A DNA stretch of 58,471 nucleotides. Source: Gammaproteobacteria bacterium (GTDB lineage Bacteria > Pseudomonadota > Gammaproteobacteria > SZUA-229). The position numbers and the translations under genes are program-made. Positions 2 through 20,313 of the stretch are shown here, piece by piece; the first letter of the stretch is position 1; every line of letters begins with the position of its first letter. The notes beneath the pieces are model-generated. The model had not been told where the DNA came from, ran no database searches, and saw only the letters and a program-made list of their open reading frames with translations. The stretch spans positions 1-58,471 of the forward strand of contig JAOUNI010000013.1 in assembly GCA_029881035.1 (NCBI GenBank), written 5' to 3'.

Positions 2-169
2 GCCACAAGAGGACAATGTTATCTTAGTTGCCATGGAGAACAACATACACCCTGTGGATACGATCGTAGCACTGGCACTGTATGTGGCCCCTGCCTTAAT
101 AATGGTGGGGGTGGCGGTGGCGGTGGCGGTGGTGGCGGTGGTGGCAGTGCTTGTACAGCAATCCCGTAA
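2..169 (+). CDS. C-terminal end of a Cys-rich, possibly haem-binding protein with a polyglycine tail (5' partial)
   Basis: The frame starting at base 2 is open from the window edge to a TAA at 167-169, giving the last 55 residues of a protein whose start lies outside. It holds CYLSCHG, a CX3CH motif (one residue longer than canonical CXXCH), three more cysteines within about 20 residues, then 14 consecutive glycines and the ending SACTAIP. The glycines are coded by a GGT/GGC tract at about 104-145. The family is not recognisable from this fragment. The neighbouring multihaem cytochromes make a c-type cytochrome or exported Cys-rich protein plausible, but that is inference. It converges on the cytochrome cluster. 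A different frame of the same stretch is open too, but it is just the Gly tract read as Val/Ala. Confidence 0.5.
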   Translation, partial: ATRGQCYLSCHGEQHTPCGYDRSTGTVCGPCLNNGGGGGGGGGGGGGGSACTAIP

Positions 170-413: not shown

Positions 414-1007
414 TCACAGCGTACTTAAGAATTCCGCAACTGCATCTATTTCATTATCAGTCAGTTGTTTAAGAATTCTATTCATCAAATTATAATTATC
501 TGCCTTACGTATGCCTTCCTGAATATCCTTAAGCGATTTATACAGGTAACCCTTATTCTGCCCACCAACTCTCGCTGTCTTACTTATGTATATTTTTACA
601 CTATCATCATGATCGTTATGACAGAAATTACATTGATGAATAAAAAAAACGTCTCTACCAAGTCTCCCATTATCAGTAAGAACACCATCACCCGACATCA
701 TAGGCAATCTAGAGTAATAAGCAGAAATATCCGAAATATCTTCGGCACTAGGTTTCACTTTATTAATCACCTTGCCCATTACAGTATCAAAACGTGCGCC
801 AGTAACATATTGCATTGTTTGAATATACAGAAAATTCTCGTATTGCCCATTTAATTTTGGCACTAATTGATCTTTTGTATCACCATCAATAGCATGACAC
901 TCTATACAAATTTCAGCTTTTTTTTCGCCAATAACAGGATTACCGTCAGCATATAAACAGCACGGTGTAAGAGGTATAAATAGCAACAAATAAGATAACT
1001 TATTCAT
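414..1007 (-). CDS. Diheme cytochrome c, c4/c553-like
   Basis: An exported electron-transfer protein of 197 aa. It has a hydrophobic signal sequence (residues 1-20, ending LYA) and two class I cytochrome c domains, each with one CXXCH: CIECH at 34-38 and CNFCH near 124. The segment following the first haem (YIQTMQYVTGARFDTVM, then DISDISAYYSRLP) matches the cytochrome c4/c553 pattern, in which a Met downstream is the sixth haem ligand. The length is close to that of cytochrome c4. It is the last gene of a minus-strand group with two triheme cytochromes, so it probably exchanges electrons with them in the periplasm. The physiological donor and acceptor are unknown. Confidence 0.85.
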   Translation of the reverse strand: MNKLSYLLLFIPLTPCCLYADGNPVIGEKKAEICIECHAIDGDTKDQLVPKLNGQYENFLYIQTMQYVTGARFDTVMGKVINKVKPSAEDISDISAYYSRLPMMSGDGVLTDNGRLGRDVFFIHQCNFCHNDHDDSVKIYISKTARVGGQNKGYLYKSLKDIQEGIRKADNYNLMNRILKQLTDNEIDAVAEFLSTL

Positions 1008-1069
1008 CGATAATATTTGACAAATAAATAATCGATATTTTTTCCTGAAAATTCCTGCAACATAATTAA

Positions 1070-1945
1070 TCAGGGAATAAATGCGCCCGTATTCCTGATA
1101 ACATTAATGATTTCCATAGTAGATTTCTCTAGCATAGTGACAGCTTGTTTGTGTTTAAAGTTAGATGCTAATTTTTCAGCCTCATTGCGATGACTCCTGG
1201 CAACCTTAATGACATCATTCATACTGGAAGTTAAACCAGCAGCTTTATCATTTTCTGACAAAAACATATTAAGCAACATAAAATGCGTGTCATTTCTATC
1301 AATTTCATATAAATACTCCTCCTTATCACTTGCAAAATTAAGTGACTTTGTCAGCGTATCACCTGAACGTTGTTTACTAATCTCAATTTTAATTGTTTGA
1401 AGAACCTGACTTAGCTCAACTATTGCAGAATCATACTGTTCCTGAAAATAAAGCTTATCTGAATGACTAAGCTTTACGTTAACGTCCTCTGATAAAATCC
1501 TGAACTTATCCTGAGCATCTTTTTCAGCACTTATTCTTTCCAGGGCATCCATTAAAGCATTAGCGCTCTTCCTTAATGAATCATAATTATTTTTACCTCT
1601 CTTTTTATGTTTTGCCCCCTTAAGGTTAGCAAATTCAACTGCATCTAACAGGGCAGCCCTGGATTTATTTATTAATTCATTGGCTTTTTCTATATCACTT
1701 TTATCGTATGCATCACTTGCATCATCATAAAGTGATTTTGCAAATCTATAATATTGTATTGCCGCTTCGTTGTTACTGTGGAGCACCTGATTACTAATTG
1801 TTGATCGATTCAATAGACTAGAAACCGAATTCATCTTATTCTCAAGTTCAAGATTTTTATCCATAGAGTTTGCATATATTGCTGCGGTCGATATATACAT
1901 AAAAATAAACATTTTGATATATTTTTTCATAATTTTCTCATTCAT
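1070..1945 (-). CDS. Exported, cysteine-free, helix-rich protein of unknown function
   Basis: I do not recognise this 291 aa protein. It begins with a signal-peptide-like segment (residues about 7-25, best from the internal Met at 6, MKKYIKMFIF), predicting export. The mature part contains no cysteine, so it cannot bind c-type haem. It reads as almost entirely amphipathic helix. Three stretches look like diverged copies of one helical-hairpin unit: about 69-103 (AKSLYDDASDAYDKSD then AN..LI..S...L..A), about 160-192 and about 249-286. This resembles TPR-like or similar solenoids. It lies between the lipoprotein triheme cytochrome (30 bp away) and the diheme cytochrome (62 bp away) on the same strand, so it is probably co-expressed and may be a scaffold. 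That role is inference. Confidence 0.7.
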   Translation of the reverse strand: MNEKIMKKYIKMFIFMYISTAAIYANSMDKNLELENKMNSVSSLLNRSTISNQVLHSNNEAAIQYYRFAKSLYDDASDAYDKSDIEKANELINKSRAALLDAVEFANLKGAKHKKRGKNNYDSLRKSANALMDALERISAEKDAQDKFRILSEDVNVKLSHSDKLYFQEQYDSAIVELSQVLQTIKIEISKQRSGDTLTKSLNFASDKEEYLYEIDRNDTHFMLLNMFLSENDKAAGLTSSMNDVIKVARSHRNEAEKLASNFKHKQAVTMLEKSTMEIINVIRNTGAFIP

Positions 1946-1975
1946 ATTAAGTTATGAATATATTATTAATAATTA

Positions 1976-2734
1976 TTACCACTTCCAATTGGTTTGCTTA
2001 ATCTCCTTTTGAGCTTTTTTTTGAGAATGACAGGATGTACATCTTGAAAGTGGGAATGCCACCTTGCCATGACAAACACCACACATCTCACCCATTAGAT
2101 TTTTCGCCATGCTCATATTATTCGCCCCCTTCTGAGGAACAAAAATACCTGGATGGCAGTTTGTACAGTCAAGAACCTCTGTATGCTGTTTGTGCGGGAA
2201 CACAACATCGGGCATTGAACCTTTTACTTCCCTGATAATATTCAGATCCATAACCAGCGGAACTGCATCAGGGTTATATAAATCGCTACGTGGCTTAATT
2301 TTCCCTAACTCTACTGCTTTTACCCAATCTACAGAGTTACCTCCTTTAGCGATTGGAAGATCGGAAAAAGCCTCTTGTGGATTCTGTAACAACACTGCCC
2401 CAGGGTTGTTCGCATCGTGTATACCATCATCTTTTATACTTTTTTTCGATCTGGCGTTAATCTTTAAAATTCTGTTAAACTGATTCGGGTTTTTTGTATT
2501 TATTATAGATATTGCATCATCCTGATTTTCTTTTTCAATATTGACAGAATCAGTATTTTTTTTATGACCATCAGTTACCTCTGATACCTGCTGTTTAATT
2601 TCTACACTTTTTCCAATTTTATTGGGCATAGAATTCTCTTCCTTATCCGCATATTCAGGTACTGAACTGCAACTATATAACGCAAAACAAATCAGTAGAA
2701 AATTAAATACTAATCTCAGTTTATTAGCAGACAT
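1976..2734 (-). CDS. Triheme c7-type cytochrome, predicted outer-membrane lipoprotein
   Basis: A 252 aa exported cytochrome. The N-terminus is a lipoprotein signal with a lipobox-like LYSC, Cys at 22. The residues after Cys are SS rather than Asp, which by the usual Lol rule favours the outer membrane. A long polar, Lys/Asn/Ser-rich linker follows (about 25-165). The C-terminal domain has FPHKQH, then three CXXCH motifs (CTNCH, CGVCH, CTSCH) with a GANNMSM segment between haems 1 and 2. This spacing is that of c(7)-type triheme domains. The same domain occurs in the next gene upstream, 6 bp away, suggesting duplication and a shared electron path. A role at the outer membrane is inferred from the lipobox only. 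Confidence 0.82.
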   Translation of the reverse strand: MSANKLRLVFNFLLICFALYSCSSVPEYADKEENSMPNKIGKSVEIKQQVSEVTDGHKKNTDSVNIEKENQDDAISIINTKNPNQFNRILKINARSKKSIKDDGIHDANNPGAVLLQNPQEAFSDLPIAKGGNSVDWVKAVELGKIKPRSDLYNPDAVPLVMDLNIIREVKGSMPDVVFPHKQHTEVLDCTNCHPGIFVPQKGANNMSMAKNLMGEMCGVCHGKVAFPLSRCTSCHSQKKAQKEIKQTNWKW

Positions 2735-2740
2735 TATAGA

Positions 2741-3151
2741 TCACTCCACCTGCGCTTTAGGTTCACGACCTATTTCTGTATTTAGTAAATTCTGAAGTGA
2801 GCTGCGTTCAACATGGGTATTCATTTCAGAATTTCCAGAGTGACAAAGATCACATCGTTCACTACCCCATGCTGTTTCTCCATCATGGCATTCACCACAG
2901 AACTGCCCTTCAAGAATGTCAATCATTTTAATTTTGTTTGCACCTGCTTTTAATTCAAAACCAAGATCTGAATGACAAACCTTGCAGGTAAATCGAATAC
3001 GATGAAACCAGTGAGGAAAAATAACCGGCTTCATACCCGAAGCTTCAGCATAGGTATTTAATACTACGTCACCATATTCAGCATTTGATTCAATGCTATA
3101 TAAGAATGAAACTAATACAAAAAAAAGATTAGCCAATAACTTAGTTCGCAT
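2741..3151 (-). CDS. Triheme c7-type periplasmic cytochrome
   Basis: A 136 aa exported cytochrome with a signal peptide (residues 1-24, cleavage near SNA-E). One triheme domain follows: IFPHWFH supplies candidate axial histidines, then CKVCH, the spacer GANKIKMIDI, CGECH, and CDLCH. Order and spacing match the domain in the downstream lipoprotein, so the two are paralogous. It is the first gene of the minus-strand cluster and has an 890 bp AT-rich region upstream that should contain the promoter. It probably carries electrons across the periplasm, as PpcA-type c7 cytochromes do, but no partner enzyme is in the window. Confidence 0.85.
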   Translation of the reverse strand: MRTKLLANLFFVLVSFLYSIESNAEYGDVVLNTYAEASGMKPVIFPHWFHRIRFTCKVCHSDLGFELKAGANKIKMIDILEGQFCGECHDGETAWGSERCDLCHSGNSEMNTHVERSSLQNLLNTEIGREPKAQVE

Positions 3152-9425: not shown

Positions 9426-12389
9426 TTAAAGATTAATAACCTCTAAGCCGAGATCACCTACTTGCTCACGAGTCGCGGAACTGGTGATTACCGCCGTGCT
9501 TGCCCTGTCTGTCTGCAAATAAGTTTCTGTCACGCGCTTAAGGTCGTCCAGCGTGACGGCCAGCACACGTTGTCGTGCTGCCTGCAGTTTTTCACGTGTT
9601 CGACCGTGTAAATTATTATGAAAATCATGGCGCGCTTCACCAGAGGGCGAACCCGGCTTATCCATGGTTCCAATGACTCCTAGAATCGCTTCTTCAACCT
9701 GTCGCCACTCGTGCTTGTTGTTCAGCATCCAGTCGATAGAGCGATCGAAATCGTCCAGCGTTTCAGTCAGGCGTGGATCGCGGTAAGAGTAGAATTTGAA
9801 TGCTGCAATATTTGAATCATGACTGGCGCCGCCACCGTAAGCGCCACCCTTTTCACGAATGGAAGTATGCAGATAACCATTGCGCAGGAAGCCGCCTAAT
9901 ACTGCGAGCGCCGCCGCATCTTCGTGTTCCATTGGTACAGTAGGATAAGCCCTGGCGCAGAAGTTGACCTGGGTGTTAGCGATCCACATCTGCCGGGTCT
10001 GCTGGTGTTTTTCAGCCAGCGCAAAAGGTTTAAATGAAGTGGCGGCTGACTCGGGCGTCCAGATGATTTCAAATTCACTGACCAGCGAATCCAGCTTATC
10101 GCCTTCTGCCGTCAGCATATAACGCTGCGGAGAAGCGATGATCTGTTGGTGTATTTCGGACAGGCTGCTGGCAAATTCAGCAATCGCATTCTTGCCATTT
10201 TCGCCGGTGTTGGCATCATCAAGTCGTTTGATGTAACGAATGGCTTCCAGGCCACCAAAGCGATGTGACAAAGCCGCTACCGGGCTCAGGCCACTGGCCG
10301 CAGCGGTCATAGCGAGGACATGGCCGTTACCGGTAACACTGCGTTCGCGGCGAGCACGTTGCTGGGAAATCAGCTCCTCAATACGATCATGTTCATCAAA
10401 TCGAACAGAGTGAATGGTTTCGTGCATCAGCCCGGCAAGCTCACCGTTATTCCTGTTCAGCGCCTTGCCCATAAACAAATAATAAGCATTGGCGGCTTGA
10501 ACATTATCGGTATGACCAAGAATACTCGACTGCGAATGAATGCCACCACTGACACTGGACTGACGTTCCTGCATTTTCAGGTAATCGTTGTCGCCACAGC
10601 CCAGTTCGGTCAGGCAGGACGAATAATAGGGAATCAGGTCGAGCTGTGCGTCAGTTAACGCTGGCATATCAATGGCAATTTCGTGATAGACCAGACCATT
10701 AGTGCCCTGCGCATAGAGCGTGGAATCAGCACCTGAAATTTTTCTGGGCAGAGATTCAGGAATAGACAGTTCAGCAGGTACATCCTCAAGGCCAACTTTC
10801 GGCAGTATTTCAGGATCATCCACCTGCGCCTGGCGCTGTGCGAGATCGGCGGCGCGCTTAATCACCAGCAGCTTGTCCTGTTCTGACATGGCGGCTTTCA
10901 TTGTGGCAAGGCGGTGTTTTTCTGCCTGCTCTTTACGCTGGCTGAGTTGCGTGTCGGGACGCAGCGTCAGGCGCACACGATGCGGATTATCCAGCAAATA
11001 TTTTTTAACCAGCTGCTTGATGAATTCAGGGTCTTTGATATCTTCACGCAGTGATTCAATCACCGGATCAAGATCAAGCAAAGCAGTAGGGTCGCTGCGG
11101 TGAATCGCTGCGGTTAAGCCACCCAGAATCAATTGCAGGCCATAAGGATAACCGTCACCACCAATTTCGCGCTGACTGATTTCAAGCTGGTGCAACACTG
11201 ATTCAAGTTTGTCATGAGCCACGCCATTTTCGGCGACATCTTCCAGCACGCCCAGAACCAGTTTCTCAACCTCGACCGCGTGTTCAACTTCACTGCCTTC
11301 AAGACCGCAAACGAAACACATCTCGTAATTGGAATCTTCCAGTCCGCACAAAGGCGATGGTGCGGTACCGAGTTCTGTTTTTTCCAGAGCATAACGCAGT
11401 GGTGACGAACTGTTATCCAGCAACACCTGTGACAGCAGATTAGCCTTCATCATTTCATCGAGTGAAGTACACGGCCCCAGTAGCCACGACACAACATGAT
11501 GGGTTTTCTGTTCAGTATCTTCATCGGCGGTTAAATCAAATGCATAAGCCTCTTCGACCGAAACAGGCGCCAGATATCTTTTCTCGGGATTAACCGCAAT
11601 ATGCACATCCAGTTTATCGAATTCGGCCAGCGCTTTTTCTTCGAAGACCGCCTGATGCTCGGCTGCAGTAATATCACCGAAGGTCATGAAGACCGCATTG
11701 CTGGGGTGATAATGCGTTTTGTGAAAGTCTTTCAATTGCTGATAAGTTAAATCAGGAATATCAGCCGGTTCGCCGCCACTATTGAAATGATAGGTCGTGC
11801 TCGGATAAAGGTACTTGCTCAGCGTCTGCCAGAGCACACTCACGGGCGAGCTCATTGCGCCTTTCATCTCATTGAAGACAACACCTTTGAAGATCAGATC
11901 AGATTCCGCATTATCCGGTTTGGCAAATTCAACACGATGACCTTCCTGCAGAAAATCCAGCTCATCCAGACGCGTGAAAAAAACAGCATCGAGATAGACA
12001 TCGAGAAGATTTTTAAAATCTTTTTTGTTCTTGCTGGCAAACGGGTAAGCCGTCCAGTCACTGCTGGTGAAGGCATTCATGAATGTGTTCAATGAACGGC
12101 GGATCATCATGAAGAAAGGATCGCGCACCGGGTAATGTTTACTGCCACACAATGCAGTGTGCTCAAGAATATGCGCAACGCCGGTTGAATCCATGGGCAC
12201 GGTTCTGAAACCCACCAGAAAAACATTCTCCGCATTTTCAGAAGCCAGGTGGTAATGAAGCGCTCCGGTTTTTTTGTGACGGTATTCTTCGACGGTAATA
12301 TTCAGTGAATCAATCCGTCGTTGGCCAAGACTTTCAAATGCGTCATGACATTTCATTAATTCGGTCGCTGGCTTCTGGTTTGTTTGCAT
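9426..12389 (-). CDS. M16C zinc metalloprotease, presequence protease (PreP)-like
   Basis: A large peptidase of about 987 aa related to mitochondrial/plastid PreP, which degrades free peptides in a closed chamber. The inverted zinc motif HxxEH is in HILEHTALCGS (about H73, E76, H77), with a downstream glutamate expected in the first M16 domain. The rest fits two M16 halves joined by the M16C-associated domain, with C-terminal GGAYGGGASHDSN. No signal peptide, so it is cytoplasmic. The frame is open to a TTG at 12419, but ATG 12389 has GAGAG just upstream and is preferred. It is flanked on the same strand by the methyltransferase-like gene and the radical SAM gene. Confidence 0.92.
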   Translation of the reverse strand: MQTNQKPATELMKCHDAFESLGQRRIDSLNITVEEYRHKKTGALHYHLASENAENVFLVGFRTVPMDSTGVAHILEHTALCGSKHYPVRDPFFMMIRRSLNTFMNAFTSSDWTAYPFASKNKKDFKNLLDVYLDAVFFTRLDELDFLQEGHRVEFAKPDNAESDLIFKGVVFNEMKGAMSSPVSVLWQTLSKYLYPSTTYHFNSGGEPADIPDLTYQQLKDFHKTHYHPSNAVFMTFGDITAAEHQAVFEEKALAEFDKLDVHIAVNPEKRYLAPVSVEEAYAFDLTADEDTEQKTHHVVSWLLGPCTSLDEMMKANLLSQVLLDNSSSPLRYALEKTELGTAPSPLCGLEDSNYEMCFVCGLEGSEVEHAVEVEKLVLGVLEDVAENGVAHDKLESVLHQLEISQREIGGDGYPYGLQLILGGLTAAIHRSDPTALLDLDPVIESLREDIKDPEFIKQLVKKYLLDNPHRVRLTLRPDTQLSQRKEQAEKHRLATMKAAMSEQDKLLVIKRAADLAQRQAQVDDPEILPKVGLEDVPAELSIPESLPRKISGADSTLYAQGTNGLVYHEIAIDMPALTDAQLDLIPYYSSCLTELGCGDNDYLKMQERQSSVSGGIHSQSSILGHTDNVQAANAYYLFMGKALNRNNGELAGLMHETIHSVRFDEHDRIEELISQQRARRERSVTGNGHVLAMTAAASGLSPVAALSHRFGGLEAIRYIKRLDDANTGENGKNAIAEFASSLSEIHQQIIASPQRYMLTAEGDKLDSLVSEFEIIWTPESAATSFKPFALAEKHQQTRQMWIANTQVNFCARAYPTVPMEHEDAAALAVLGGFLRNGYLHTSIREKGGAYGGGASHDSNIAAFKFYSYRDPRLTETLDDFDRSIDWMLNNKHEWRQVEEAILGVIGTMDKPGSPSGEARHDFHNNLHGRTREKLQAARQRVLAVTLDDLKRVTETYLQTDRASTAVITSSATREQVGDLGLEVINL

Positions 12390-13793: not shown

Positions 13794-14564
13794 CTAACGT
13801 ATCCAGCCGCGCTCGCTGGCCGCAAGAAAATCCATCACCTGCTGAACTTCGACATGATCTTTGGCCAGTTCATTGGCTTTTTCAACCGCTTCCTTGTGTG
13901 AGCATTTGGATTTTACCAGCAGCTTGAACGTTTCCTGTAATGCCCGGATAGAGTCGGCACTATAGCCACGACGTTTGAGGCCTTCTTTATTGATACCAAA
14001 AGCACGGGCGCGGTTGCCGGCGATGGTGAAGAACGGCAGGATGTCGCGATCAATCGCGCTGGCAAAGCCTGAGAAGCTGTGCGCACCGATGCGGGTGAAC
14101 TGGTGCACGGTTGAATAGCCGCCAAGGATGGCGTGATCTTCAATAATCACATGCCCGGCCAGCGCGACCGCGTTGGCAAGGATGATGTTATTGCCCAGAC
14201 GACAATCGTGAGCGACGTGCGCCGAGACCATCAACAGATTATCGTTGCCGATTGAGGTGATGCCTTCATCATCAATGGTGCCACGATTCAGGTTGGCATA
14301 TTCACGAATGGTATTACGATCACCAATTTCGAGCCGTGTGGGTTCACCTTTGTATTTCAGGTCTTGCGGCTGCTCACCGATCGAAGCAAACTGGAAGATG
14401 TGATTATCCTTGCCGATTTTGGTCGGGCCTTTGATCACGACATGCGATTCAATTACCGTACCCGAACCAATCTCGACATCAGCGCCGATGACACTGAATG
14501 GACCGATTGAAACATCATCTGCAATAACCGCAGAAGGATCTACAATGGCATGAGAATGAATCAC
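13794..14564 (-). CDS. lpxA: UDP-N-acetylglucosamine O-acyltransferase (LpxA)
   Basis: First step of lipid A synthesis: transfers an R-3-hydroxyacyl chain from ACP to the 3-OH of UDP-GlcNAc. The 256 aa length matches the family. The protein is a left-handed parallel beta-helix with hexapeptide repeats (IADDVSIGPFSVIGADVEIG), the catalytic His region in SAHVAHDCRLGNN, and a C-terminal helical domain. The start is GTG at 14564 with AAGGA about nine bases upstream. It is the last gene of the lipid A/BAM cluster, 6 bp after fabZ. Confidence 0.97.
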   Translation of the reverse strand: MIHSHAIVDPSAVIADDVSIGPFSVIGADVEIGSGTVIESHVVIKGPTKIGKDNHIFQFASIGEQPQDLKYKGEPTRLEIGDRNTIREYANLNRGTIDDEGITSIGNDNLLMVSAHVAHDCRLGNNIILANAVALAGHVIIEDHAILGGYSTVHQFTRIGAHSFSGFASAIDRDILPFFTIAGNRARAFGINKEGLKRRGYSADSIRALQETFKLLVKSKCSHKEAVEKANELAKDHVEVQQVMDFLAASERGWIR

Positions 14565-14570
14565 CTGGAC

Positions 14571-15017
14571 TTATCCTTTTTCCTTGGCCGCACACAGTAA
14601 ATTAGCCGTGGTGACGATTTGACCATCAACACTGGCTTCGCAGCTAAATTTCCAGATGACTTTAGACTGACGTTCAACTTTGGCTTTCAGGGTCAGTTGA
14701 TCACCAGGCACCACCTGGCGCTTAAAACGCACATCATCAACACCGACCAGCATGTAAAGTAAATCAGAGCTGGGTTCTTCACTCATGGTTCTGAAGCCAA
14801 GCAGGCCGGTGGCCTGAGCCAGCGCTTCAATAATCAATACGCCGGGCATAATCGGTGTCTCCGGGAAATGGCCGGTAAAAAATGGTTCGTTGACTGAAAC
14901 ATTTTTAATTGCGGTGAGGGTCTCGCCGGGCACACAATCGATCACACGGTCGATCAGCAAAAAAGGATACCGGTGCGGAAGGAAACGCCGAATCTCATCT
15001 ATATACATTGCACTCAC
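14571..15017 (-). CDS. fabZ: 3-hydroxyacyl-ACP dehydratase (FabZ)
   Basis: Dehydrates 3-hydroxyacyl-ACP in fatty acid elongation and so competes with LpxA for the same acyl-ACP pool. The 148 aa hot-dog fold protein shows [13 protein letters not shown], the catalytic His in [13 protein letters not shown] and the catalytic Glu in [11 protein letters not shown]. The start is GTG 15017, with GGAG seven bases upstream; the ATG three codons later is worse placed. It lies between lpxD (40 bp) and lpxA (6 bp). Confidence 0.97.
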
Positions 15018-15057
15018 AATCTATCTCCAGTCTAATAATTTATTATTCAACAGATGT

Positions 15058-16077
15058 TTAATCGGCTGATTTGTTTGTTTTTTCCAGATTAGCCACACGC
15101 CGGGCCAGCTCATCGAGGCGACGAAAGCGCGCGCTATTTTTGCGCCAGTTTTCAGTGGTATCCATCGGCGTGCTGGATGAATAAGAACCTGATTGCGTAA
15201 TTGAACGGGTCACCATGGTGCGGCCTGTAATAACGACATTATCGGCGATATTGAGGTGCTCAACAATACCGACCAAACCACCGATTAGACAACCACGGCC
15301 AATATGGGTGCTACCTGCGATCGCGGTTGATGATGAAATTACCGTGTTATCACCGATACTGACACCATGTGCAATCTGAATCTGGTTGTCGAGCTTAACG
15401 CCGTTACCGATAATGGTGTTTTCCAGCGCACCACGATCGATGGTTGTGTTGGCACCAATCTCGACGTTATTGCCAATGACTACGTTACCAATCTGAGGAA
15501 TTTTCAAAAAAGTATCGCCATCCTTCACAAAACCAAAACCATCCGTACCCAGAACAACACCCGAATGGATAATACAGTCATCACCGATTTGGCAGCCGTA
15601 GCCCACTGTCACATTGGCGCTAATGCGGGTGTTCGAACCAATCACCACATCATTCTCAATGACGCAGCCAGCGCCAATCTGAGCGCCGGCACCAATGCTG
15701 ACGCCCGCTGAAATAACCGCACCAGCCGCTATCGATGCCGTTTTATCTATACTCGCCAGACTGGAAACAACAGCATTCGGGCTGACACCTGCATCCGACT
15801 TTCTGGGTGGATACAGGAGATTGGCCACTTTGGCATAAACCAGTCTCGGGTTCTCCGTTACCAGCGCAGGCACAGGACACTTATCCAGGAGCTCAGCTTT
15901 TATGATCAGTGCCGACGCACTAGACGTAGACAGGTGTTCAGCATAGGCAGGGTTCGAGATAAAAGCTATATCACCCGACCCCGCTGAACTGATTTCAGCA
16001 ATACCTTCAATCAGACAATCATCACCCTCAAGTTTTGAGCCTGTTTGTGTCGCTAGATCTGCTAACAGATAAGCCAT
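15058..16077 (-). CDS. lpxD: UDP-3-O-(3-hydroxyacyl)glucosamine N-acyltransferase (LpxD)
   Basis: Third lipid A enzyme: adds the N-linked hydroxyacyl chain to UDP-3-acyl-GlcN. The 339 aa protein has the N-terminal uridine-binding domain (about 1-100), a long hexapeptide-repeat beta-helix (IGAGAQIGAGCVIENDVVIG onward), the catalytic His in QIAHGVSIGDNTVIS, and a C-terminal helix ending LARRVANLEK. LpxC, which acts before it, is not in the window. It is 12 bp downstream of skp. Confidence 0.97.
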   Translation of the reverse strand: MAYLLADLATQTGSKLEGDDCLIEGIAEISSAGSGDIAFISNPAYAEHLSTSSASALIIKAELLDKCPVPALVTENPRLVYAKVANLLYPPRKSDAGVSPNAVVSSLASIDKTASIAAGAVISAGVSIGAGAQIGAGCVIENDVVIGSNTRISANVTVGYGCQIGDDCIIHSGVVLGTDGFGFVKDGDTFLKIPQIGNVVIGNNVEIGANTTIDRGALENTIIGNGVKLDNQIQIAHGVSIGDNTVISSSTAIAGSTHIGRGCLIGGLVGIVEHLNIADNVVITGRTMVTRSITQSGSYSSSTPMDTTENWRKNSARFRRLDELARRVANLEKTNKSAD

Positions 16078-16089
16078 GACTATTTTATC

Positions 16090-16599
16090 TTACTTCTTAA
16101 ATGATTTTTTCATTTCAGCAAGCACAGTCTCGGTAATGTCTAGCTTTTCAGAGGCAAAAACCACGCCTTCACTAAGAATCAAATCATAATTATCTTTTTT
16201 GGCAATGTCGTTGATAATGTCACGCACAGACTTTTGCAGCACGGCCAGTTCCTGGCTACGCATGGTTGACACTTCCTGACTCAAGGTAGCTTCCATTTGC
16301 TTAAATGCCTGAACTTTTCCAATCAACTTGTCTTTGAGTTCGTTTAACTTGTCTTCGGTCATAACAAGCTCGTTACGCTTGTAATTTTCCTGCATGGTTT
16401 TTATTTCTTTTTCCATCGCCTGCAATTCATCTTTTTTGCCACCAAAGCGTTCCATCATAGCCGTATTAACAGCTTCAACCTGCGGTGCCTGAGTCAATAA
16501 TTTTTCAACACTGACATAACCTATTTTAAGTTCACTGGCTGCCATTGCATTACTGCAAGTTGCCATTAAAAACAAAGTCGCTATTATTATTTTTTTCAT
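16090..16599 (-). CDS. skp: Periplasmic chaperone Skp/OmpH
   Basis: Holds unfolded outer-membrane proteins in the periplasm and delivers them to the BAM complex. The 169 aa protein has a signal peptide (1-20, ending AMA), then KIGYVSVEKLLTQAP, the conserved mature start of OmpH proteins, and a long coiled-coil arm rich in Lys/Glu/Met (about 50-130) that forms the tentacles of the trimer. Ribosome binding site GGAGATAG precedes the ATG. It lies between bamA (10 bp) and lpxD. Confidence 0.95.
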   Translation of the reverse strand: MKKIIIATLFLMATCSNAMAASELKIGYVSVEKLLTQAPQVEAVNTAMMERFGGKKDELQAMEKEIKTMQENYKRNELVMTEDKLNELKDKLIGKVQAFKQMEATLSQEVSTMRSQELAVLQKSVRDIINDIAKKDNYDLILSEGVVFASEKLDITETVLAEMKKSFKK

Positions 16600-16609
16600 T
16601 ACTATCTCC

Positions 16610-18949
16610 TTAAAAGAAAGAACCTATACTAAATTGAAATACTCTTAATCTATCACCTTCAACATCATTCAAAGCCTTTGTCCAGCTAAAGCGCAAAGGC
16701 CCTATTGGAGCCAGCCAGACAAATGAAAGGCCAGCTGATGCACGCAACTCCTCAAATGCGAAACCATCCTTTGTAGAATTATAAGTCGGCTTCGAACTGA
16801 GGAAAACATTACCAAGGTCATAAAAAGCACTCAATCTTACCGAAGACGGCGCTTTTTCTACAAACGGTATTGGGAAAATAAAGTCTGCACCAGCCGTGAC
16901 ACGCATATTACCACCTGTCGGATCACCATAATCATCACGTGGCCCCAGAGAATTGGACTCAAAACCTCGAACAGTACGTAATCCGCCAGCAAAGTATCGC
17001 TCATAGAAGGGCAATGTATCAAGTTCCCCATAACCATTGCCATAAGCCAGGTTGGATCTTAATAACAAGGTCAAATCATCAGTCAAACCAAAATAAAATG
17101 AAGTCAGGTAAGAAAGCTTATAAAACTCCAGATCACTGCCCGGGGCTGACAGATCCAGCGCCACTGTCTGTGAACTACCCCTGGTCGCAAATACCGTTCT
17201 GTTACGAGTATCATAATTATAACTGGCGTTAAGCAATAGATTGTCATAACTATCACCATGCTCATTAACAAACGCACTAGCTTCAAGTGACGGATTTATA
17301 CTCGATAAAAGCAACTCAACATGGCTCCATCCATAACCCAGACGTAATGTTGAAAATTCTGTCAAAGGAATACCATAATTAACATTGGCGCTATATGAAT
17401 CAGTTTGGAAATCATTAATTTCCTCTTCTGCTGCATCCCTTTTAGCAAAGGATAAACCAATGGTACGACTGATACCATCAATAGTGTAATAAGGATCAGT
17501 AAATGAAATATTGTAAACTGTGTTCGCCGAATCAGTATTAATGTTTACAGCAAGACGTTGTCCTGTGCCCATAAGATTCTCTTGTGTCAGGCCTACATTA
17601 AACAGGAAGCCCTGTGTTTGCGAGAATCCTGCCCCGATATTAAAACTACCTGACAGCCGTTCCTCAACACTAACTTCAAGATCCACCATGTCATCAGTAC
17701 CAGGAACCGGTTTGGTTTCAACTTCAACATTTTCCAGATAACTCAATCGTTGCAAACGAATTTTTGACCGCTCAAGTTTATCACTGGCGAGTATAGAGCC
17801 TTCCATTAAACGCATTTCACGTCTCAGTACTTCTTCATGCGTTCTGAAATTACCGTGAAAATTTATATTTCTTACCTGCGTTTTATTACCTGGCACTAAT
17901 TGATAGGTAAGATCGATGGTTTTTTTGTTCTCATCAATTTCGGGAACAAGCTTAACTTTAGCAAAGGCATAACCTACTTTACCAAGTCGATCTTCCAGTT
18001 GCTTCTGCGTGGAGGTCATAAGTTTTCTGGAAAATATTTCATCTGGTTTAGTAAGAATCAATGCTTTTAGCACATCTTCATCAACCACCATCGGCCCGAC
18101 CAACTTAACTTCTCCAATAGTATATTGTTCACCCTCTTCCAGATTGATGGTGATATAAATATCCTTTTTATCTGGCGTAATCGATACCTGGGTCGAGTCT
18201 GCAGTAAATTTGATATAACCACGATCAAGATAATAGGAACGTAATGCTTCAAGATCAGCGTTCAATTTGGGCTTTGAGTACTCATCTGAGTCTGAAAACA
18301 CGGCAAACGAACCGGGAACTCCTAACTGCAACTCGTTAAGTAATATTTCATCGTCAAATTTTTCATTACCAATGATATTAATTTGTTTAATAAGGGCAAT
18401 GCGTCCTTCGGATATTTTGATATCAATATCAACACGATTCTGATCAAGTTCGGTAATTTCAGTTTCAATACGAATACCATATTTCCCTTGACTAAAATAA
18501 ACGCGCTCAAGTTCCTGTGTTAATTTTTCCAGTAAAGAACGGTTATATATGCGTCCTTGAACAATACCAATATCCTCAAGCGCTCCTTCCAGTGTCTTAC
18601 TATCTATATCAGAATTCCCCGAAAATTTAACTTCAGAAATTGAAGGGCGCTCCTTAACTTTTACAATCAACGCATTACCGTCTCTGAACAGCTGAACATC
18701 TGCAAAAAAACCGGTTTTATATAATTCTTTAATGGAGAAGGCAATCTGTTTACTATCTAACGGATCACCCACCTGTACCGGTAAATAATTTAATAGCGTG
18801 CCATCTGGTAGACGTTCTAAACCTTCAATACGAATATCACTAACAACAAAGCCTTCCGATGACCATGAAAACCCGGATATTAATAATAAGTTGATGAGTA
18901 AGAAAACTCTGGGCAATAAAGATCTTAAATTAAACTGAACAGGCATCAT
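16610..18949 (-). CDS. bamA: Outer-membrane protein assembly factor BamA
   Basis: Central Omp85 protein of the BAM complex. The 779 aa precursor has a signal peptide (about 1-30), five POTRA domains (DIRIEGLERLPDGTLLNYLP begins POTRA1, about 33-430) and a C-terminal 16-strand barrel. The conserved VRGFESNSLGPRD of loop 6 is present, and the protein ends in Phe as expected of an outer-membrane beta-signal. Two ATGs stand in tandem at 18949 and 18946; the first overlaps the rseP stop by 1 bp, indicating translational coupling. Confidence 0.97.
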   Translation of the reverse strand: MMPVQFNLRSLLPRVFLLINLLLISGFSWSSEGFVVSDIRIEGLERLPDGTLLNYLPVQVGDPLDSKQIAFSIKELYKTGFFADVQLFRDGNALIVKVKERPSISEVKFSGNSDIDSKTLEGALEDIGIVQGRIYNRSLLEKLTQELERVYFSQGKYGIRIETEITELDQNRVDIDIKISEGRIALIKQINIIGNEKFDDEILLNELQLGVPGSFAVFSDSDEYSKPKLNADLEALRSYYLDRGYIKFTADSTQVSITPDKKDIYITINLEEGEQYTIGEVKLVGPMVVDEDVLKALILTKPDEIFSRKLMTSTQKQLEDRLGKVGYAFAKVKLVPEIDENKKTIDLTYQLVPGNKTQVRNINFHGNFRTHEEVLRREMRLMEGSILASDKLERSKIRLQRLSYLENVEVETKPVPGTDDMVDLEVSVEERLSGSFNIGAGFSQTQGFLFNVGLTQENLMGTGQRLAVNINTDSANTVYNISFTDPYYTIDGISRTIGLSFAKRDAAEEEINDFQTDSYSANVNYGIPLTEFSTLRLGYGWSHVELLLSSINPSLEASAFVNEHGDSYDNLLLNASYNYDTRNRTVFATRGSSQTVALDLSAPGSDLEFYKLSYLTSFYFGLTDDLTLLLRSNLAYGNGYGELDTLPFYERYFAGGLRTVRGFESNSLGPRDDYGDPTGGNMRVTAGADFIFPIPFVEKAPSSVRLSAFYDLGNVFLSSKPTYNSTKDGFAFEELRASAGLSFVWLAPIGPLRFSWTKALNDVEGDRLRVFQFSIGSFF

Positions 18950-20313
18950 TACATAAACCGCTGAAAATCATTATAGAAGGCAATAATCATTAATGCCCCA
19001 AGGATAGCTATACCTATTTGCTGGCCACGTAATTCAAAGGCCTCAGAAACGGGAGAGCCTTTTATAGCTTCGATCATATAAAAAAATAAATGCCCACCAT
19101 CGAGCACAGGAATCGGTAACAAATTTAACACACCTAAACTCACCGAAATGATCGCTAAAAAACCTATAAACGTTGTTAGACCAATTTCTGCAGTAACACC
19201 CGCATATTTAGCAATCGTCACTGGCCCTGATATATTACTCAGCGAAGCCTCACCAACAATCATTTTCCAGATAACACGTAATGTGAGTTTTGACATATCC
19301 CATGTTTTAGCGATAGCCGCAGGGATGGCCTCAAACGCGCTATAGTCGATATCAATAAACAATTTATCTTTTAATTCTTTTGGTATTTCCTGATAAGCCC
19401 CGATAAAACCTTTATTTTCACCCTGCTTCTCTTTGATAGCGGGAATTACGATAATCGATATTTCCTGCTGACCACGTAGAATCACAAAATTGATTGGCTT
19501 GGCCTGACTGTGCTCAACTCGTTCAACCAGTTCATCCCAGTGTTTAATAGTGTAATCATCAAGCCTGAGCAATTGGTCGCCCTGCTGCAAACCTGCCTGT
19601 TCGGCAGGACCGCCTTCGATTACACCACCAATCACTGCAGGTAAATCTGGCCACCAGTGCCGAAAGCCCAATTCAGCCATGACATCAGATTCACGTTCAA
19701 GCAATTGAGTTGATGATAAATCAATCTGCCTGTTTTCAATCAGACCATCGGCATTTCTAACCTGCACATCTAGAGTGCCACCATCCAGCCCCTGATCTAA
19801 TACCAGCATATGAAAATCAGACCATGATTTAACGACATCATCACCAACTTTCAACACTTCATCATTATTTTCAAAACCAGATAAAGCGGCTATTGATGCC
19901 TCTGCGGGAGCACCCAGTAATGCCCTTTCCACTGTAATACCCGATATAAAAACAATCCAATAAAGGACAACGGCAAGAATAAGGTTAAATAAGGGACCGG
20001 CAGCGACAATAGCCACACGAGTTAACAAAGGCTGTGTATTAAATGCATAAGGCCGCTCTTCCTCAGCCACTTCACCTTCACGCTCATCCAGCATCTTCAC
20101 ATAACCACCCAGAGGAATAGCCGCGATTATATATTCGATAGTCTTACCATTAACATCACGAGCCCATGTATACAAAGGTCTACCAAAGCCAATAGAAAAA
20201 CGCAGCACTCTAACGCCCAGTTTACGTGCTACCCAATAATGCCCGAACTCGTGAATAGTCACCAGAATAGCGATGGCTACGATAAAAAATAAAAGATTAT
20301 GCAAAATGCCCAT
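18949..20313 (-). CDS. rseP: Site-2 intramembrane protease RseP
   Basis: Inner-membrane zinc protease that cleaves anti-sigma factor RseA after DegS, activating sigma-E when outer-membrane assembly fails; it also clears signal peptides. The 454 aa protein shows the zinc motif HEFGH in the first membrane helix (about 21-25), two tandem PDZ domains in the middle (AEQAGLQQGDQLLRLD is in the second) and the C-terminal zinc ligand motif NLLPIPVLDGGHL. It lies directly upstream of bamA with 1 bp overlap and 8 bp after dxr. Confidence 0.96.
   Translation of the reverse strand: MGILHNLLFFIVAIAILVTIHEFGHYWVARKLGVRVLRFSIGFGRPLYTWARDVNGKTIEYIIAAIPLGGYVKMLDEREGEVAEEERPYAFNTQPLLTRVAIVAAGPLFNLILAVVLYWIVFISGITVERALLGAPAEASIAALSGFENNDEVLKVGDDVVKSWSDFHMLVLDQGLDGGTLDVQVRNADGLIENRQIDLSSTQLLERESDVMAELGFRHWWPDLPAVIGGVIEGGPAEQAGLQQGDQLLRLDDYTIKHWDELVERVEHSQAKPINFVILRGQQEISIIVIPAIKEKQGENKGFIGAYQEIPKELKDKLFIDIDYSAFEAIPAAIAKTWDMSKLTLRVIWKMIVGEASLSNISGPVTIAKYAGVTAEIGLTTFIGFLAIISVSLGVLNLLPIPVLDGGHLFFYMIEAIKGSPVSEAFELRGQQIGIAILGALMIIAFYNDFQRFM

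Follow-up and report, generated by a model that had tools for sequence, protein, structure and literature searches.

Near one end of the window, the 58,471-nucleotide stretch of contig JAOUNI010000013.1 analysed here (C13 of the genome G000), four close-spaced genes on the minus strand form a compact operon (Table 1). They encode a soluble triheme cytochrome c7 (D), a second triheme c7 that is a lipoprotein (E), an all-helical protein with no haem motif (F), and a diheme cytochrome resembling cytochrome c4. The genes are separated by 62, 30 and 6 bp, counted from the diheme. Throughout the window, 17 matches to CXXCH-coding sequence were found, compared to 5.5 ± 2.1 in shuffled sequences; eight of the 17 are in frame on one strand inside 2.4 kb, and these are the eight haem motifs of the operon. 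Promoter-like sites near the operon did not exceed the level of the shuffles, and none of the sites listed between positions 169 and 414 was terminator-like. Genome-wide, the plain CXXCH pattern gave 475 matches and was too unspecific for use, and a two-haem DNA pattern, which was too strict, gave 0.

Table 1. Features of the four-gene operon and of the multihaem gene end that opens the window
Feature	Positions	Strand	Details
3' end of UetJ-like multihaem gene	2-169	plus	last 55 codons and stop; body on C92
c4-like diheme	414-1007	minus	197 aa; signal peptide; 2 CXXCH, at 894-908 and 618-632
UetF-like all-helical non-haem protein	1070-1945	minus	291 aa; 0 CXXCH
UetE-like c7 triheme lipoprotein	1976-2734	minus	252 aa; 3 CXXCH; TIGR04257 63.4 bits; tree placement
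c7 triheme domain within lipoprotein	2024-2218	minus	
Codon of lipobox Cys22 (FLLICFALYSC-SS)	2669-2671	minus	PROSITE-like pattern
UetD-like soluble periplasmic c7 triheme	2741-3151	minus	136 aa; 3 CXXCH; first gene of the operon; TIGR04257 64.6 bits
c7 triheme domain within soluble protein	2837-3043	minus	

Both trihemes score above the TIGR04257 cut-off of 40 bits and pass that of Pfam Cytochrome_C7, and a profile search of the genome found TIGR04257 domains in these two proteins alone. The closest solved structures are 3ov0 (1.3e-31), 1rwj and 1os6; the c7 polymer structures of the 3ov0 type, given in the structure table as a cytochrome c family protein, are of the GSU1996 type. The triheme c7 domain is common to the operon proteins and to the GSU1996-type and PpcA cytochromes, but here each protein has a single domain and one of the two is lipid-anchored. 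The lipobox of E ends LYSC-S, with Ser rather than Asp at position +2, which is consistent with a predicted location at the outer membrane. A lipobox is found on E in four of the five four-gene loci described below, compared to 0 of 72 second c7 proteins in other loci, where protein starts were set mechanically and some lipoboxes may escape; a looser pattern flagged one of these (L041). No plasmid-borne copies of the lipoprotein gene were found.

The diheme matches the cytochrome c4 structure 6q2u (5.5e-15 over residues 22-195) and Pfam Cytochrom_C, and its score of 51 bits for PdsA is far below the curated NCBIfam cut-off of 330. Two class I haem domains and a periplasmic signal are shared with cytochrome c4, Cyc1 and PdsA; the difference here is that the gene is encoded with c7 genes. 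Among the loci compared, a c4-like diheme adjoins D-E-F only in four-gene loci. One further diheme, in L051, is encoded approximately 10 kb away from the c7 genes of a full Uet (undecaheme electron transfer) locus and was treated as a separate cytochrome. F is 50% identical to its counterpart in L023 and approximately 27-40% identical to most others, including the F proteins of full loci. Its AlphaFold model (pLDDT 90) is all-helical, with ten helices. TPR matched nowhere in the window protein, and TPR_2 matched weakly in 7 of 44 relatives. Sequence searches found no solved relatives of F, and a Foldseek search of its model against the PDB returned nothing at E < 0.001. A second structural comparison returned nothing but helical bundles; the best, EzrA, had a Z of 11.6, which is within the range that helical models reach by chance, so we name no fold for F. 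An earlier note on this DNA had proposed eight haems in a compact one-strand operon, two triheme c7 proteins, one of them a lipoprotein without Asp at +2, and a c4-like diheme, and the analysis bears out each of these proposals.

The same note overlooked the end of a plus-strand multihaem gene with which the window begins. The final haem motif of this gene is of the CX3CH form (CYLSCH, positions 17-34) and is followed by a Gly-rich end. Positions 1-156 of the window correspond to positions 19755-19907 of a second contig of the same genome, C92, with 97% identity; the first 124 bp are identical, and the mismatches, a length difference of one Gly codon and one base, are confined to a Gly-codon repeat. 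The genome holds no other site matching positions 1-156 beyond short repeat pieces. We infer with considerable confidence that C92 adjoins the window in the genome and that the assembly broke at the Gly repeat. Read across the overlap (L151:18073-19905 and window 2-169), the gene encodes a UetJ-like protein of 616 aa with 11 CXXCH motifs and one CX3CH. From its stop codon, 244 bp separate it from the end of the four-gene operon, toward which it is transcribed convergently.

On C92, a four-haem cytochrome gene (L151:12922-13650; four CXXCH) is followed by genes for an NHL lipoprotein, a 675-aa barrel-like protein, a second NHL lipoprotein and the UetJ-like protein, which runs off the contig end. 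The UetJ profile finds this last gene in the genome at 2e-78, with the four-haem gene upstream. The four-haem protein is homologous to the four-haem proteins of Uet loci, both NHL proteins beside the barrel have lipobox-like starts, and the barrel has remote, partial profile similarity to UetC (probability 97%). The four-haem protein also matches 7tfs (5e-25) over nearly its full length, and over its first approximately 205 aa the UetJ-like protein shows homology to the entire 7TFS subunit, which is that of the OmcE cytochrome filament of Geobacter sulfurreducens (PMC12954529). UetJ may thus consist of an OmcE-like unit followed by additional haems. The host here is a gammaproteobacterium and the partner genes differ from those of OmcE, which the two proteins resemble in sequence. 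The N-terminal 205 or so residues of the UetJ proteins in L041, L067 and L102 are likewise homologous to the OmcE subunit.

Uet clusters have been described in Tenderiales and Gallionella and comprise a four-haem cytochrome (UetA), a PPIase (UetB), a barrel (UetC), three trihemes (UetDEG), NHL proteins (UetHI) and an undecaheme cytochrome (UetJ) (PMC10734462), and we use that definition here. With the soluble triheme as query, species genomes yielded 399 relatives, of which 77 were read as loci and their genes clustered. Approximately 65 of the 77 carry the whole or parts of a block encoding NHL, four-haem, PPIase, barrel, c7, c7, F, (F'), c7, (c7), NHL, 11-haem, ResB and CcsA proteins, a gene content that matches the published cluster. 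By homology, D, E and F of the operon are counterparts of UetD, UetE and UetF of iron- and cathode-oxidising bacteria, and the operon is not an orphan. The earlier note knew of no matching operon; for the exact four-gene set nothing in the literature searched contradicts this, but D-E-F are parts of the published Uet system (PMC10734462, PMC5371394). Its suggestion of an unknown terminal partner fails on the outer-membrane side, where the partner appears to be encoded next door on C92.

The locus shares with Uet of ‘Candidatus Tenderia electrophaga’ and Gallionella the c7 proteins D and E, the helical F (annotated there as TPR), and four-haem, NHL and UetJ-like proteins; a barrel-like protein with remote similarity to UetC stands where the porin would be expected. 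It differs in being divided into two convergent operons across the junction of C92 and C13 rather than forming a single block, and in lacking the third triheme, UetG. The ORFs surrounding the conduit on C92 include no PPIase and no ResB/CcsA genes. Further differences are that E is a lipoprotein, that a c4-like diheme lies inside the operon, and that the UetJ-like protein is 616 aa long, compared to approximately 800-950 aa, and carries the extra CX3CH. Membership in Uet is partial, with D, E, F and UetA-, NHL- and UetJ-like genes present and the single block and UetG missing, and the locus looks like a two-operon Uet variant supplemented by a c4-like carrier.

This set of four genes recurs in unchanged order in L023, L064 (‘Candidatus Thiodiazotropha’), L084 and L092, with different flanks; L084 and G134 were counted once because they are apparently one record, with contigs of equal length and dihemes 99.5% identical. 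In each of the five four-gene genomes, D and E are the only c7 genes that pass the TIGR04257 cut-off. None of the four other genomes, all gammaproteobacterial, has the usual Uet cluster; three have a UetJ-like conduit and the fourth has at least the tetraheme gene. Orthologues of all five C92 conduit genes are present in G060 and G059 (barrel 30-33% identical, the rest 43-52%), a UetJ-like gene is present in G061, and G058 has only a four-haem gene, cut by the contig end. The four-gene operon of G060 lies on the same contig as the conduit, downstream of it and convergent, with genes for 8-haem, 7-haem, cytochrome b, 3-haem, NHL and 24-haem proteins between them. Operon and conduit are on separate contigs in G059 and G061. 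The set is a conserved unit, its gene order recurring beside or together with an outer-membrane conduit, which is the kind of support that the earlier note looked for. In a sample of 369 genomes of the class, eight have a UetJ-like gene scoring at least 490 bits, and both sampled four-gene genomes (G000 and G134) are among them. Five further genomes (G107, G323, G085, G166 and G162) contain the conduit and show no lipoprotein match at 1e-10, so the conduit does not depend on the c7 relay everywhere; all five have parts of the module of 8-haem, 7-haem and cytochrome b genes near the conduit.

Several side observations concern these neighborhoods. A locus with genes for 4-haem, NHL, barrel, NHL, 12-haem, 8-haem, 7-haem, cytochrome b, 3-haem, NHL and 18-24-haem proteins recurs in several gammaproteobacteria (L152, L154 and L160-L166), and no name for this locus type was found in the literature searched. 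Contig C30 of G061 (L166:16239-18172) has its first NHL gene broken into three pieces and a short four-haem gene, reflecting either decay or an assembly error; a UetJ-like gene of this genome is on C264. Near the four-gene operon of L092 are a second, lone F-like gene (11277-12143) and, downstream, genes that, judged by eye, resemble an arsenite oxidase pair (14150-17441).

The ancestry of the two c7 proteins was addressed with a tree of 100 domains, which was built from few columns, so that many inner forks are open, and has no outgroup. A deep fork (support 100/99) sets D-type apart from E/G-type domains. The five D proteins of the short operons share a clade with the proteins at the UetD position in full loci (97/92). 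The five E proteins of these operons make up a separate clade (99/96) amid second- and third-position (UetE/UetG) proteins. Because the fork is deep and each protein groups with its own Uet counterpart, neither appears to have arisen from the other within the operon, contrary to the earlier note; they are better read as ancient paralogues. The short four-gene operon itself looks like one lineage, which may either have been excised from Uet or have been the core around which Uet was assembled.

We consider it probable that the operon supplies the periplasmic relay for an extracellular electron conduit of the Uet type that is encoded in two operons. This reading draws on homology, gene order, contig overlap, recurrence and the lipobox; from these we infer the joint work of the two operons, the formation of a filament, the role of F as a scaffold, the link from c4 to an oxidase and the inward direction of flow. 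In the outer half, the OmcE-like tetraheme may form an extracellular filament, acting with the barrel, the two NHL propeller lipoproteins and the UetJ-like 12-haem cytochrome. The UetJ-like protein and the barrel would span the outer membrane, following the filament or a surface cytochrome. Lipid-anchored E, on the inner face of the outer membrane, and then soluble D would shuttle electrons between conduit and periplasm, with F as a putative helical scaffold holding the two. The c4-like diheme could link the c7 pair to the respiratory chain, with a haem-copper oxidase and/or bc1 as the simplest partner.

Electron flow through such a relay is probably inward. Uet is associated with electron uptake (PMC5371394, PMC10734462); in Tenderia growing on a cathode, the three trihemes and a TPR gene rank near the top in expression, and one expression cluster holds the trihemes together with the undecaheme and a c4 (Cyc1) (PMC5371394). 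The diheme of the operon is c4-like, and the orthologue of Cyc1 has been proposed to feed a cbb3 oxidase (PMC5371394). Inward flow is also favored because G000 has no more than a weak, partial match, with 27% identity, to the cytochrome b that accompanies this conduit elsewhere.

The same proteins could serve outward respiration, with electrons passing from quinol to the diheme and c7 proteins and through the conduit to an external acceptor, in the manner of PdsA/PpcA-type carriers. Geobacter uses c7 cytochromes of the PpcA/GSU1996 kind for outward transfer, and the nearest solved structures are of that kind; the resemblance of the diheme to PdsA, weak as it is, and the cytochrome b module adjoining the same conduit in other genomes point the same way. 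Against this, the counterpart of that cytochrome b in G000 is the weak match mentioned above, the diheme is nearer to cytochrome c4, and the published association of Uet is with uptake, and we regard outward flow as a possible but rather unlikely arrangement.

It is also conceivable that the operon encodes independent periplasmic carriers, for example for the oxidation of sulfur compounds, and lies close to a conduit by accident. The placement of operon and conduit on different contigs in G059 and G061 would fit this, as would the genomes that have the conduit and lack the operon. We nevertheless think it improbable, given the convergent proximity of operon and conduit in two genomes, the presence of the conduit or its four-haem gene in all five operon genomes, and the homology of the operon genes to genes embedded in Uet loci. 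UetG and the canonical Uet block are absent from this genome, and the operon might instead be a decaying remnant of a full cluster that has no present function. This seems very improbable, since the four genes are intact in the same order, diheme included, in five genomes, and the D and E proteins form clades.

The reading of the operon as the periplasmic relay of a conduit bears on how electrons enter cells. Uet is among the handful of systems proposed for taking up electrons from minerals and cathodes. A relay joined to a c4-like carrier would name a testable link for the step from the Uet trihemes of the periplasm to the respiratory chain. The separation of relay and conduit here would also mark D-E-F as a unit of its own, and the OmcE homology ties Uet-type conduits by sequence to filament proteins. 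We speculate, more tentatively, that a portable relay detached from Uet hands electrons from an OmcE-like conduit straight to a high-potential oxidase, so that uptake would bypass the quinone pool; we hold this to be somewhat doubtful, and if true it would represent a modular form of nanowire-conduit wiring.

Other arrangements of related genes were also seen. Uet-like genes occur in two blocks in Aromatoleum/Azoarcus (L025-L031), where D-E-F lie away from the barrel block and are followed by other genes. A third arrangement, in relatives of the window genome from the same genus or family (L105-L107), combines lipoprotein and soluble c7 genes with four-haem and NHL genes, and L105 and L107 additionally have a barrel-like gene and an 11-haem gene. 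In another species of the window's genus (L108, G002:C119), a soluble c7 that is 77% identical over 90 aa lies at a contig end and adjoins alaS- and lysC-like genes, in a neighborhood unlike that of the window.
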